Positions 4,814 to 26,281 of a stretch of DNA of 26,384 nucleotides are shown piece by piece. Both the position numbers and the translations under genes were made by a program. Position 1 is the stretch's first letter. Each line of letters starts with the position of its first letter. The notes beneath the pieces are model-generated. The model was given only the letters and a program-made list of their open reading frames with translations, had not been told where the DNA came from and made no database searches. Source of the stretch: a virus; the IMG/VR virus record IMGVR_UViG_3300034092_001398, positions 1 to 26,384 of that record, one strand, 5' to 3'.

Positions 4814-4991
4814 CTTTGATCCTCCCCATTGCCTGTTGAACTTGCTTCAAAACTTCGTTTGGTACTCGGCCATGCGTTCGCTTTAGCTCGAGATACGCTC
4901 GCCTCTCGGCCTCTTCCTTTGGCAGCTTGCCATCATGTTGCTGGATCGCCGCTCGCTCGTTCCAAAGTTCCGTTAGGTCCTCGTCCGTCAT
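4794..4991 (-). CDS. Small hypothetical protein, 65 aa
   Basis: A 65-residue charged, helical protein starting MTDEDLTELWNERAAIQ, not recognised. The open frame extends further upstream, but that part is arginine- and serine-rich and antisense-like. The ATG at 4991 is preceded directly by GAAGAGG, so I take it as the start, with modest certainty. The gene overlaps the 3' end of csrA by 59 nt in another frame and the following membrane-protein gene by 20 nt. Such dense overlap suggests coupled translation with csrA. No catalytic or metal-binding residues are evident. Confidence 0.55.
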   Translation of the reverse strand: MTDEDLTELWNERAAIQQHDGKLPKEEAERRAYLELKRTHGRVPNEVLKQVQQAMGRIKDGRTSE

Positions 4992-5142
4992 CCTCTTCGG
5001 CCAACTCCTCTCGAAGAATCTTGACCGCTGGCGGTGCGGTGATACCGAGCTGCACTCGTCCGCCGCGAATCGAAACGACTCGCAGTCGTATCCCGCCACC
5101 GATCAAAATCACTTCATCTTCCTTGCGACTTAGCACTAACAT
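4933..5142 (-). CDS. csrA: CsrA/RsmA-type RNA-binding regulator
   Basis: A 69-residue CsrA protein. CsrA dimers bind GGA motifs in mRNA leaders, usually in hairpin loops, and block or sometimes aid translation. The first 47 residues match the family: MLVLSRKEDEVILIGG, then the GITAPPAVKILREEL block. Leu4 and Arg44, the main RNA-contact residues of the family, are kept. The tail after about residue 48 is acidic, then Gly/Pro-rich, and not conserved. I take the second of two adjacent ATGs (5142), which is 7 bases after AAGGAG and gives the normal MLVL start. The gene sits in the early phage operon. Possible targets in this phage are noted at the csrA, mom and terL leaders. Confidence 0.93.
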   Translation of the reverse strand: MLVLSRKEDEVILIGGGIRLRVVSIRGGRVQLGITAPPAVKILREELAEEDDGRGPNGTLERASGDPAT

Positions 5143-5184
5143 CATCGATCTCCTTATCTGGTTAATCTGCTAGAAACTTCCTGT
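5142..5184 (-). promoter_or_regulatory. csrA leader with two GGA motifs
   Basis: Upstream of the csrA start are ACAGGA (5184..5179) and the ribosome binding site AAGGAG. Both carry the GGA core that CsrA binds, and the first has the preferred ACA before it. CsrA proteins often repress their own translation in this way. The first site lies inside the last codons of the upstream gene. Autoregulation is inference. Confidence 0.35.
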
Positions 5185-6977: not shown

Positions 6978-7101
6978 AGTCTTTTCTCCGCGACTCGGTA
7001 AACCCAAGCGATCACTCCTAATTTCCAAACGGGCTTTGGCACCGTGCCGCCGCCCGCCGCAACGAGCCAGAAAAGCTTGAAAACACTCTCGCTGCGTTTA
7101 T

Positions 7102-7212
7102 GAAGTCGCCCAGGAATCGAACCTGGCTCCCAACTGCTGGTGTAAACCGTGGCGGATCGACCTCGCCTGCGTTGGGTCCGATGTTCCGGCGAGGCACCAG
7201 CCCCGCGACCTC
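7102..7212 (-). ncRNA. tRNA-like structured RNA without a D-arm
   Basis: A 111-nt element on the minus strand. Its 3' part is a perfect T-arm: CCAGG, loop TTCGATT, CCTGG (7126..7110), directly followed by GCGACTTC (7109..7102). That octamer pairs with GAGGTCGC (7212..7205) to give an 8-bp acceptor-like stem with one G-T pair. Between them, GCTGGTG (7201..7195) pairs with CACCAGC (7142..7136), and the adjacent CCTCGCC (7194..7188) pairs with GGCGAGG (7167..7161). This makes one long arm in place of anticodon and D arms, with an 18-nt bulge and a 20-nt loop. No anticodon stem-loop of normal form and no CCA are seen. It recalls the tRNA-like part of tmRNA. Alternatives are a degraded tRNA or an attachment site built on a tRNA 3' end. 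Confidence 0.5.
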
Positions 7213-7273
7213 AGTCTCAAAACCACGCCCGAACCCAATCCCTCGGACTCATCATGTGAACGGGCGGAAACTC

Positions 7274-7360
7274 CTACTTGGCCATACTGGCCAGAAGAAC
7301 AAACTCGATAATGCCAATCGGAAAGAGTGCGAACAAAAACGCCAAATCGATAACGTCCAT
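7274..7360 (-). CDS. 28-aa membrane microprotein
   Basis: A 28-codon frame starting MDVIDLAFLFALFPIGIIEF and ending LLASMAK. Nearly the whole peptide is hydrophobic, with two acidic residues at the N-terminal side and one lysine at the end, as expected of a single membrane span. AAGGA stands 8 bases before the ATG. It lies between the HTH gene and the tRNA-like RNA, on the same strand. The good ribosome binding site and the clean membrane profile support it; shortness limits confidence. It could act on host membrane proteins or be toxic. No family is known to me. Confidence 0.45.
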   Translation of the reverse strand: MDVIDLAFLFALFPIGIIEFVLLASMAK

Positions 7361-7504
7361 TCGTCTAGTCCTTGTGGTGTGCAGAGTGCGACCACTGAGC
7401 AAGAATGCTCAAGAGTCGTTCTTTAGTGATCGCAACCAGTCGCCTTCGACAGCTTCTTGATTGCGGTGGTAAATGTATCGGCTACCTAGAACAATATCAA
7501 GAGG

Positions 7505-7729
7505 TTATTTTGAATTTTTCTTTCCTGGGTTTCCTCGAGGACGTCGCTCCCTCAAATAACGATCGCACTCTGCCTTTGAAAAAAGCATATAAAGTCCAAT
7601 CCTTTTTGATGGTTTCATCAGCCCTCGTTTGACATACTGTTGTACTGTATTTTCAGACAGCCCCATGTATTTTGCAGCCTCGCGGGATGTGTAAAACACG
7701 TCGTGCTTTCCTTGAATTGTCATTTTCAT
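7505..7729 (-). CDS. Excisionase-like helix-turn-helix protein
   Basis: A 74-residue DNA-binding protein of the MerR/excisionase-like (HTH_17) type. After MKMTIQGKHDV comes FYTSREAAKYMGLSENTVQQ, then VKRGLMKPSKRIGLYMLFSK and a basic tail. The pattern 'tsrEAAkymGlsentVqqyvkrG' is the family's helix-turn-helix, and 'FSKAECDRYLRER' its closing helix. I take the ATG at 7729, which follows AGGA; the frame extends to a TTG at 7813 without a site. Such proteins serve as Xis or as repressors of early genes. No integrase is in the window, so either role is open. It faces the plus-strand operon across a 387-nt gap. Confidence 0.8.
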   Translation of the reverse strand: MKMTIQGKHDVFYTSREAAKYMGLSENTVQQYVKRGLMKPSKRIGLYMLFSKAECDRYLRERRPRGNPGKKNSK

Positions 7730-7770
7730 GGTTCCTATTGTAGCTGCGTGACGTACAATACAAAACAAAG

Positions 7771-7810
7771 AAAAGCCGTCACGGGTCGAAGATGACCGAA
7801 GAACGACGGC
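7771..7810 (-). terminator. Terminator-like hairpin upstream of the HTH gene
   Basis: On the minus strand GCCGTC (7810..7805) pairs with GACGGC (7780..7775) around a 24-nt loop that can itself pair weakly, and TTTTCTTT follows. It would stop minus-strand transcripts that come from the region of the plus-strand promoter. The long loop makes it uncertain. Confidence 0.3.
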
Positions 7811-7862
7811 CAAACAACGATGTCATCTTTTGTGTAACCTCTAGCCGGGTTTTCGAGCTGCA

Positions 7863-8770: not shown

Positions 8771-8952
8771 GCGACCGCATCGAACGCATTGCCAGCCGGA
8801 TCAAGACACTTGGCCAAGCCGCTAGGCTGTGGGATTGGATCGACCACCAGGACGAGCCAGAGCAACTCTGGGCCGCGATGGCCAAGGCGGCTCCCTGGTG
8901 TTTTGCTGACCCGACCAAGCCAAACAGCCTACGAACAATTCGAGGTATCTAA
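8767..8952 (+). CDS. Hypothetical protein, 61 aa
   Basis: A 61-residue protein starting MSDRIERIASRIKTLGQAAR, helical and rich in Trp (LWDWIDHQDEPEQLWAAMAK). AAGGAG with a 7-base spacer precedes the ATG, and the ATG overlaps the previous stop. The stop shares one base with the next ATG. It may be a small adaptor protein; I see no known motif. Confidence 0.7.
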   Translation: MSDRIERIASRIKTLGQAARLWDWIDHQDEPEQLWAAMAKAAPWCFADPTKPNSLRTIRGI

Positions 8953-9143
8953 TGCCACGACCACCGCACCCAACCCGGCCATTTGAGCCGTTGCCGACTC
9001 GAAACATCGGACGCATTTCGAACGAGGACTGGGAAGCCTACAAGGCGGCCGCCTACGCCTCAGGAAAAACGCTCAGCGAGTGGATCAGGGAAACGCTAAC
9101 GCGAGCGGCTAAACGGCAGGCAAAGGCTTCAGAACAGGAATAG
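8952..9143 (+). CDS. Ribbon-helix-helix-like small protein
   Basis: A 63-residue protein, last of the plus-strand operon. After a proline-rich start (MPRPPHPTRPFEPLP) comes RNIGRISNEDWEAYKAAAYA, then SGKTLSEWIRETLTRAAKRQ. A strand, helix and 'GktlSeWiRetL' second helix is the pattern of ribbon-helix-helix (CopG/Arc-like) proteins, which bind DNA as dimers and often regulate their own operon or act as antitoxins. GAGG lies 6 bases before the ATG. The last 35 nt overlap the 3' end of the minus-strand gene at 9109..9567. Confidence 0.7.
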   Translation: MPRPPHPTRPFEPLPTRNIGRISNEDWEAYKAAAYASGKTLSEWIRETLTRAAKRQAKASEQE

Positions 9144-24891: not shown

Positions 24892-25096
24892 CCTCCTGTA
24901 TCAACCGCTCTTCTTCCAGGTTGATCTGGTCTGCGTGCAAAAGTGCTTTGGCCGCTGATGTCCTTTCTCGCGGCGAAGCTGTGCGATCTGCAACAATCAG
25001 CAACAGACTTGCAATGATCTTTTCGCGGTACTCTGCTTTGATTGGCCATCGTTCTCGCAATGCTCGCTCCATCAAACGCGTATCGCGGACACTCAT
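24725..25096 (-). CDS. terS: Terminase small subunit candidate
   Basis: A 123-residue helical protein starting MSVRDTRLMERALRERWPIK, directly before the large terminase and overlapping it by 167 nt in another frame. The sequence (YREKIIASLLLIVADRTASP, REERTSAAKALLHADQINLE-like helices) resembles the helical small subunits that bind DNA for packaging, but the resemblance is loose. The start overlaps the stop of mom (ATGA, 25096..25093). The C-terminal part, GGRADSPANYDGEEAGG-like, is likely unstructured. The call relies mainly on position. Confidence 0.7.
   Translation of the reverse strand: MSVRDTRLMERALRERWPIKAEYREKIIASLLLIVADRTASPRERTSAAKALLHADQINLEEERLIQEDEHQQRGRLVDFAKHLGAEELARLASASGIAIPAIEAQDGRADSPANYDGEEAGG
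24880..24905 (-). promoter_or_regulatory. Hairpin over terL start with ACAGGA motif
   Basis: GTTGAT (24905..24900) and ATCAAC (24885..24880) pair, with the loop ACAGGAGGATGAGC carrying the Shine-Dalgarno sequence and the ATG of terL. The loop has ACA-GGA and a second GGA next to it, close to the CsrA-preferred ACARGGAUG. The stem is only 6 bp. Confidence 0.4.
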
Positions 25097-25800
25097 TTAA
25101 TATCTAAAGCGTTACGGTCGGAATTGCACCGCCCCTTCCCGACTGGAATGCCGGGCGTGCCGCTTTCAGCACTTGTAACGCGTTTTGGGTATGGTTTGCG
25201 TAGTGGCTCGATTCGCTTTCGCATTTCGTCATCTAATGGCATTAGATAGCGGTGTTTTATCGCTGCCACTACTCTTTCGGCATTTTTGTCAACGTGCTTC
25301 TTTAGCCACGGTATTGACTGTCCGCCTTTTCCGTATCTGCTGTGCAACGTCTTTGGGTGTTCAATCTTTCCATTAACTCGGTATCCGTGCGTTGCAACTG
25401 TTCCGTCGTAAATCCAATTGGTTGCCTGATAAATGCCGCCATGATGGCCTTGTGATGAATCCGCAAACGATATCACTAACCGAATATCTGGGCATTGTTT
25501 TTTCAAAAACTTTAACGCAATCGACAAAATGCGTGATGTTGAAACAGTATGCTTTGACAATGCTACTCTCGTTAGTTCGCAAACGCCGGTGATCGGTAAT
25601 TGGAACCGTTTACCGTATTCTGGCGTTGCACCTTGGCCGAACAACACAACGCCGATAAACTTTTCACTTTCCCATGCCCCAACTTTCAATCGCTTAAACG
25701 ATGGCAAACAACCGCTGTAATGCCAATTCTTGCAGGCATACTTAGCTGCCTCATGCGTTGCCCAATCAATTCGCAAATCAGATTTGCTCACGACAATCAA
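25093..25800 (-). CDS. mom: Mom-family DNA adenine-modifying protein
   Basis: A 235-residue protein of the Mom family (GNAT-like fold). Phage Mu Mom converts adenine in phage DNA to an acetamido-type base and protects it from restriction enzymes. The family pattern is evident: CKNWHYSGCLPSFKRLKVG, EKFIGVVLFGQGATPEYG, CELTRVALSKHTVSTSRILS, LRLVISFADSSQGHHGGIYQ-like (IRLVISFADSSQGHHGGIYQ here) and TNWIYDGTVATHGYRVNGK. The start codon is a TTG (25800) or possibly GTG (25791). AGGA is close before the TTG. Both starts lie in a small hairpin and overlap the 3' end of the upstream gene. The last bases overlap the small terminase start. Confidence 0.9.
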   Translation of the reverse strand: MIVVSKSDLRIDWATHEAAKYACKNWHYSGCLPSFKRLKVGAWESEKFIGVVLFGQGATPEYGKRFQLPITGVCELTRVALSKHTVSTSRILSIALKFLKKQCPDIRLVISFADSSQGHHGGIYQATNWIYDGTVATHGYRVNGKIEHPKTLHSRYGKGGQSIPWLKKHVDKNAERVVAAIKHRYLMPLDDEMRKRIEPLRKPYPKRVTSAESGTPGIPVGKGRCNSDRNALDIK

Positions 25801-26281
25801 ATTCCTGTCGACAATGAGGACAAGTCACAATCTTGGGTTCTAGTTGGTCAAGCTGCCCTTGGTCATCTTCAGACCCAGGCTCAAAATCTGCTAGCATCGC
25901 TTCAATTTCTTCAACAGAAAAACCTGCCGCAGTCGCTAGGTCTTCATCATCTGCCAGCAAGCCGTTTAACTGGGCCGCCAGAACGTCGGAATCCCATTCA
26001 GCTAGTTCAGCTGTCCGGTTGTCTGCGATAGCGTAGGCAACAGCGTCTGACCCATTTAACTCGGTGATGACAACATCTATAGAATCCCAGCCAAGCTGCT
26101 TCGCTGCCTCAAGAGTTCCGTTGCCAGCTCTGACAATGCCATTCCTGTCGATAACGATGGGCTTTTGCTGACCAAACCTCCTCAGGCTGGCGATGATTGC
26201 CTGGATGTTTCGATCATTGTGCTTCCTCGCATTTGCTGGGTCGTTGGAAAGCTCAGAAACAGACCGCTGCTCAATCTTCAA
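25778..26281 (-). CDS. ParB-domain protein with zinc-ribbon-like tail
   Basis: A 167-residue protein. The N-terminal half is a ParB/Srx-like nuclease-type domain (VSELSNDPANARKHND, FGQQKPIVIDRNGIVRAGNG, TLEAAKQLGWDSIDVVI, AVAYAIADNRTAELAEWD). The usual GHRR box is replaced by RAGNGTLEA, as in phage versions. A middle acidic part follows, and the end is CPHCRQEFDC, a Cys-x2-Cys...Cys zinc-knuckle-like motif. The start is TTG, placed by a strong GAGGTG site. The last 23 nt overlap mom. By place it may help in DNA modification or packaging, or regulate mom as Com does in Mu; that is a guess. Confidence 0.85.
   Translation of the reverse strand: MKIEQRSVSELSNDPANARKHNDRNIQAIIASLRRFGQQKPIVIDRNGIVRAGNGTLEAAKQLGWDSIDVVITELNGSDAVAYAIADNRTAELAEWDSDVLAAQLNGLLADDEDLATAAGFSVEEIEAMLADFEPGSEDDQGQLDQLEPKIVTCPHCRQEFDCREQI
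25791..25810 (-). promoter_or_regulatory. Hairpin over the mom start codon
   Basis: CGACA (25810..25806) pairs with TGTCG (25795..25791). The 10-base loop GGAATTTGAT contains the GGA of the ribosome binding site and the TTG start of mom. It includes ACAGGA across stem and loop. The alternative GTG start is in the 3' stem. The hairpin is made from the zinc-motif codons of the upstream gene. Confidence 0.45.

Follow-up and report, generated by a model that had tools for sequence, protein, structure and literature searches.

A tRNA-like phage RNA without an anticodon arm, and a class of phage RNAs with covarying tRNA shells around unrelated interiors

Introduction

What would a phage do with an RNA that has the acceptor and T-arm of a tRNA and no anticodon arm? 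The question is raised by a locus in the window, by which we mean the whole stretch of DNA analysed, a linear IMG/VR record of 26,384 bases. Its phage genes (terminase, portal, head protease, RecT, helicase, Mom-like protein) lie almost all on the minus strand. An initial annotation had placed a tRNA-like RNA here, with a single long arm between acceptor stem and T-arm. The features of the locus are as follows.

7029..7504, minus strand: gap of 476 nt between listed open reading frames, holding the element; the flanking genes share its strand (ORF list)
7505-7813: excisionase-like HTH gene, next upstream of the element
7102..7212, minus strand: entire tRNA-like RNA body, 111 nt, 5' end at 7212 (tRNA-Sec alignment, fold z-score, chance rate)
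7205..7212, minus strand: acceptor 5' strand, GAGGTCGC, 8/8 pairs with 7102-7109, one of them G-U (pair probabilities 0.94-1.0)
7191..7204, minus strand: D-arm, 5-bp stem GGGGC/GCCUC with a 4-nt UGGU loop (pair probabilities 0.99-1.0)
7178..7189, minus strand: mini-hairpin CCGGAACATCGG at the anticodon-arm site, 12 nt, CCG-GAACAU-CGG, 3 bp with a 6-nt loop (probabilities 0.97-0.98)
7129..7176, minus strand: long extra arm, 36 nt inside its outer helix (outer-helix pair probabilities 0.98-0.99)
7176-7171 with 7134-7129, minus strand: extra-arm outer helix, CCCAAC/GUUGGG
7110..7126, minus strand: T-arm abutting the acceptor, 5/5 pairs, canonical T-loop
7102..7109, minus strand: acceptor 3' strand, GCGACTTC (sequence)

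Results

A minus-strand element with a D-arm and no anticodon arm

The minimum-energy fold of the minus strand (-49.0 kcal/mol) consists of acceptor, D-arm, 3-bp hairpin, extra arm and T-arm, with probabilities of about 0.94-1.0. The 8-bp acceptor at 7102-7212 formed by GAGGTCGC and GCGACTTC, with its one G-U pair, and the perfect T-arm adjoining it, CCAGG-TTCGATT-CCTGG, were both as initially annotated. The anticodon arm is missing, as had also been stated; the mini-hairpin sits in its place, and its sequence holds no anticodon loop. The middle of the RNA had been drawn wrongly. A D-arm was said to be absent, yet GGGGC-UGGU-GCCUC pairs almost without exception in the predicted ensemble, and the single long arm with two nested 7-bp helices, which compete with the D-arm in the fold prediction, has a probability of 0.0 and when enforced gives -43.6 kcal/mol, 5.4 kcal/mol worse. 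The initial description thus stands in that the RNA is tRNA-like, has an acceptor and a T-arm and lacks an anticodon arm, and this extends to many other phages; its account of the middle does not stand. The base after the acceptor, the discriminator position, is A, and CCA is not encoded.

The RNA was assigned to the minus strand because of the orientation of its T-loop, which reads TTCGATT on that strand only, because the T-arm plus acceptor pattern has its one match in the window there (0 in 100 shuffles), and because the fold is better there (z = -2.73, with 3/200 shuffles as good). The plus-strand fold was rejected as less unusual against shuffles (z = -1.61; 15/200 as good). Using a strict scanner (T-loop TTCRANY, 5/5 T-stem and 7/7 acceptor pairs, within 170 nt), we obtained 331 matches in 2.42 Gb simulated from the window's dinucleotide make-up, a chance expectation of 0.007 per window for both strands, or 0.002 for an acceptor of at least 8 bp. 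Across 864 kb of related loci, all 11 matches of the same scanner were on the gene strand and none on the opposite one, with 0 in 10 simulations. In 6.07 Mb of loci, both strands, there were 269 matches, a number that includes ordinary tRNAs and redundant loci, versus 0 in reversed sequence. The element is a real, tRNA-like feature of the minus strand, 7212-7102.

Comparison with known RNA families

A conventional tRNA fold had been named as the finding that would overturn the annotation; ARAGORN reported neither a tRNA nor a tmRNA in the window, and Rfam at gathering scores gave no match for the element. RF00005 had no match in the window record, and the canonical cloverleaf with a 5-bp, 7-nt anticodon arm was not found. 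In a permissive Rfam search of 401 bases, the sole full-length match was tRNA-Sec (26 bits, E 0.0047), below the gathering cut-off of 47. The element shares with tRNA-Sec (RF01852) an 8-bp acceptor plus 5-bp T-stem, a 4-nt UGGU D-loop and a long extra arm. It differs in that tRNA-Sec has a UCA anticodon and G73, whereas the window element has no anticodon arm and a discriminator A, and its extra arm is about twice as long. Of the known shapes, that of tRNA-Sec is nearest to the window element. A long acceptor branch and a Sec-like body are also seen in the allo-tRNAs, irregular tRNAs of soil metatranscriptomes, some of which lie in polycistrons and some of which are not charged by E. coli enzymes (Mukai et al. 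2017, reviewed in PMC7609411). Allo-tRNAs carry anticodons, unlike the window element, and the text of that review of unusual tRNAs mentions neither phage nor virus and no anticodon-arm-less phage RNAs. The allo-tRNA-like polycistrons of soil whose products E. coli enzymes leave uncharged (PMC7609411) are perhaps partly the same phenomenon as the phage elements.

Other RNAs with tRNA-like parts were also compared. YrlA, a bacterial Y RNA proposed to inhibit an anticodon nuclease (PMC7790460), is likewise a non-coding RNA with a tRNA-like domain. Identity with Y RNA was rejected because no Rfam Y-RNA model matched (up to E 10 in the window search and E 1 in a further one) and because Ro60 (TROVE) is absent from the window and its relatives; it occurs in only 1 of 49 records. 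In that record (G074, which holds L216; 22406-23422) the Ro60/TROVE protein is encoded by a phage with a D-arm-pattern element, the only such co-occurrence among the 49. The likeness to the tRNA-like domain of tmRNA noted initially holds in outline, both having acceptor and T-arm and no anticodon arm. It goes no further, since the Rfam permuted tmRNA model matches just the 17-nt T-arm (9.5 bits); unlike tmRNA, the window RNA has a true D-stem and no tag reading frame, and it is only about a third as long. Identity with tmRNA was rejected on the Rfam and ARAGORN results. RNase P is known to cut tRNA-like parts within non-tRNA transcripts, and mascRNA and the mitochondrial t-elements, cut by RNase P and RNase Z, are likewise tRNA-like folds inside longer transcripts (PMC4919922). 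These are eukaryotic, and a processing role of the phage element is putative. Rfam 15 has no model for such elements, and in the open-access literature, where we searched, we did not find the class described. The phage elements are a variant of tRNA-like non-coding RNA, and the class may merit its own name.

Relatives of the window copy

The window element is 100% identical in two further contigs (L152 and L153), inside a 650-nt identical stretch; L153 belongs to the near-identical 41.8-kb contig IMGVR_UViG_3300020530_000015, which thus carries it unchanged. No diverged homologue of the window copy was found, and support from covariation comes from a second type of element, not from the window helices. 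That second type, named here for its GTGGGNA D-loop, is present in the same 41.8-kb contig, 11 kb from the first element:

30475-30577 of the 41.8-kb contig (= L195:2974-3076), plus strand: second-type element with a GTGGGNA loop, 103 nt, homologous to elements of L014 and L254

A search with the UGGU-type D-arm plus a T-arm showed that other phages (L284, 111 nt; L303, 106 nt; L332, 95 nt) also have elements of this loop type whose long interiors lack an anticodon. It also returned a genuine tRNA-Sec gene whose UCA anticodon was read by eye (L377, at 1-90, and L379, near its minus-strand start), so that the window D-arm type recurs in a genuine tRNA-Sec gene. A tRNA-like gene of L369 has a probable anticodon loop by eye, and five loci (L367, L370, L372, L374 and L375) have allo-tRNA-like genes with an 8-bp acceptor, a GCGC-UGGU-GCGC D-arm, a probable UAU anticodon (by eye) and an encoded CCA. 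These outcomes put the window element nearest to the body of a tRNA-Sec or allo-tRNA whose anticodon arm has been lost.

Elements may have tandem neighbours as in tRNA arrays, with a second element 2 nt downstream in L303 and 7 nt away in L180. Phages linked by their helicase carry other odd forms, including acceptor/T-arm hairpins of 55 nt and 44 nt, one of 68 nt whose anticodon stem has 3 bp, and others of 94-138 nt; some members of the class are only 42-55 nt long. By eye, a tetraloop-size hairpin replaces the anticodon arm in L155:6410-6477 (GCGA), L208:7013-7083 (UUCG) and L232:12080-12149 (CUAG). Some elements look nested (L180:336-472, and L194 near 8876-9030), with an inner T-arm or tRNA-like D-arm inside the outer interior. 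Two tRNAs, L238:8794-8911 and L203:1408-1543 (minus strand), combine an apparently intact anticodon arm with a very long extra arm of 50-70 nt, and may be transitional between tRNAs and the elements that lack an anticodon.

Acceptor covariation in the second type

The exact second-type D-arm GGCGTGGTGGGNACACGC was found in 86 stretches of viral contigs. Among its 78 unique occurrences, 53 have a perfect downstream T-arm; some of the remaining 25 lie on truncated contigs, carry T-loop variants or are chance matches. This search fixes the D-stem and full T-stem pairing by construction, leaving the acceptor as the sole unselected test, for which the first T-arm was chosen regardless of acceptor (n = 53). 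Acceptors paired at 6/7 or better in 50/53 elements, versus 8% in controls that crossed the 5' strand of one element with the 3' strand of another, and comprised 34 different strands. In the 47 distinct shells, 97.2% of cells are paired, and there are 163 double changes versus 45.8 in shuffles; all seven acceptor pairs have changed on both sides. As the acceptor sequence is not conserved, it is the shape, and not one synthetase identity, that is kept.

An anticodon arm (5 bp, 7-nt loop, U33) opens 0/53 of the second-type interiors, with shuffled interiors giving 0.19. The interiors are 14-195 nt long and mostly unrelated, with a few akin to one another: L176, L236 and L245 have a common interior despite different acceptors, and its own helix is kept through a double change. 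There is thus a class of phage RNAs with a covarying tRNA shell around unrelated interiors. The window element has the traits of this class, namely an acceptor of 7 bp or more that directly adjoins a 5-bp T-stem, a D-arm, no anticodon arm and a place on the gene strand. Its putative grouping with the GTGGGNA-loop type is one of likeness, based on a similar plan and co-occurrence in one genome.

The elements stand mostly between same-strand genes of the replication/recombination region, as judged from crude ORF calls, by which many elements also overlap spurious frames on the opposite strand. When the proteins encoded within 3 kb of the elements were clustered, no shared partner emerged, only ordinary replication and recombination proteins (largest cluster, 6 loci), and next to the window element we found neither a defence gene nor a tRNA-acting partner gene. 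In cultured phages, there was no second-type D-arm match among the matches listed, and the window element had matches of only 19-23 nt. The pattern was present in 0/192 bacterial genomes of one phylum and in 1/297 of another, where repressor, replication and terminase genes mark the surroundings of the single copy as prophage-like.

Discussion

We put at about an even chance that the window element is a small non-coding RNA gene with a tRNA-Sec-like body lacking the anticodon arm, and that its product is a processed tRNA mimic, perhaps a decoy. For the class, the most likely reading is of non-decoding tRNA bodies that would be matured by host tRNA enzymes and carry a replaceable domain. Since the anticodon arm is absent, the RNA cannot decode. 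From what is known of tRNA biology, host RNase P would cut the phage transcript at the 5' end of the acceptor, RNase Z or exonucleases would trim the 3' end, CCA would then be added, and a stable tRNA-shaped RNA would result. RNase P, RNase Z, the CCA enzyme and possibly EF-Tu read the tRNA elbow and acceptor helix and, as the shape is kept and the acceptor sequence is not, these are the simplest candidates for the factors involved. More tentatively, the RNA might act in trans as a tRNA mimic, occupying host factors that act on tRNA, such as tRNA-cutting defence enzymes, which, with no anticodon loop to act on, could not cut it. The replaceable interior may either tune this mimicry or have an activity of its own. 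A decoy, one of the roles raised by the initial annotation, is the function we favour, if less firmly than the processing steps: the missing cutting site and, by analogy, the proposal made for YrlA (PMC7790460) suggest a decoy against tRNA-cutting enzymes. We regard as possible, though somewhat short of an even chance, the wider reading of a widespread, unannotated class of phage non-coding RNAs with a covarying shell of acceptor, D-arm and T-arm in which an exchangeable domain replaces the anticodon arm, and which would serve as uncuttable mimics or tRNA-scaffolded regulators against tRNA-based host defences.

The main rival, which we consider unlikely, is a cis-acting processing signal: RNase P and RNase Z would land on the fold and the polycistronic early phage mRNA would be cut there, with the RNA body a by-product and the interior free. 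Acceptor and T-arm are indeed common to all members, interiors are mostly unrelated, the position between same-strand replication and recombination genes would suit such a signal, and the minimal 42-55 nt forms have little room for a payload and so are better explained by it. A minimal RNase P substrate, however, needs no D-arm, and the D-arm is exactly kept in many phages; the interior of L176, L236 and L245 is moreover conserved and covarying across different acceptors. It is rather improbable that the element is a decaying tRNA-Sec or allo-tRNA gene acquired by a phage and now a pseudogene, although the body aligns to tRNA-Sec below the cut-off, genuine tRNA-Sec and allo-tRNA-like genes exist in phage contigs (L379, L370, L372) and the window copy lacks a diverged homologue. 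Its acceptor (8/8) and T-stem (5/5) are intact, its fold is better than shuffles, and class-wide acceptor pairing would not survive decay. The tRNA remnant suggested initially is possible for the window copy alone and leaves the class unexplained.

A charged RNA of non-ribosomal or tmRNA-like use, for example one alanylated via its acceptor alone, is improbable to a greater degree. A G-U at the third acceptor pair and an A following the acceptor are the alanine determinants of AlaRS and tmRNA, and the window element has both. Against this, the class does not retain the third-pair G-U (0 G-U and 2 U-G of 47), on which ground alanine identity was rejected as a class feature; CCA is not encoded, tmRNA models match the T-arm alone and no tag-like frame was recognised. 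Integration leaves tRNA fragments that typically comprise T-arm and acceptor (PMC9897764), and an attachment site with the 3' part of a host tRNA gene, also proposed initially, would fit these parts and the excisionase-like gene next upstream. We judge it very unlikely because a tyrosine integrase was not found in the window, the 41.8-kb relative and three other related records (G000, G055, G056, G011, G031), because two different elements stand 11 kb apart in one genome, and because an attP leaves the acceptor covariation of the class unexplained; the 5' acceptor strand is also complete. Chance pairing or protein-coding sequence with no RNA function is the least credible reading: a 59-aa open frame (7018-7197, ORF list) crosses the element, but the low chance expectation and the repeated occurrence in phages, confined to the gene strand, argue against it. 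The priming RNA that had also been suggested found no support.

Since tRNA finders and Rfam miss these RNAs, phage tRNA counts omit a group fit for maturation and not for decoding. If the RNAs are made, phages would have grounds other than translation for carrying tRNA-like genes, which bears directly on tRNA-cutting defences and on the question of why phage genomes hold tRNAs. Engineers stabilise inserted RNAs with a tRNA scaffold, of which the phage RNAs would then be examples from nature. The presence of similar tRNA shells with highly variable inserts in dozens of other phages suggests a little-noticed way to exploit or obstruct the host tRNA machinery.

Other features of the window

The window helicase is only 40-44% identical to its relatives in named genomes. 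The Mom-like DNA modification protein (25093-25800, minus strand; phrog_1384, E 1.5e-59) is adjoined by a ParB-like frame, recognised by eye, at 25778-26281. A phage-encoded CsrA homologue lies at 4933-5145 on the minus strand (PF02599, E 1.8e-19).
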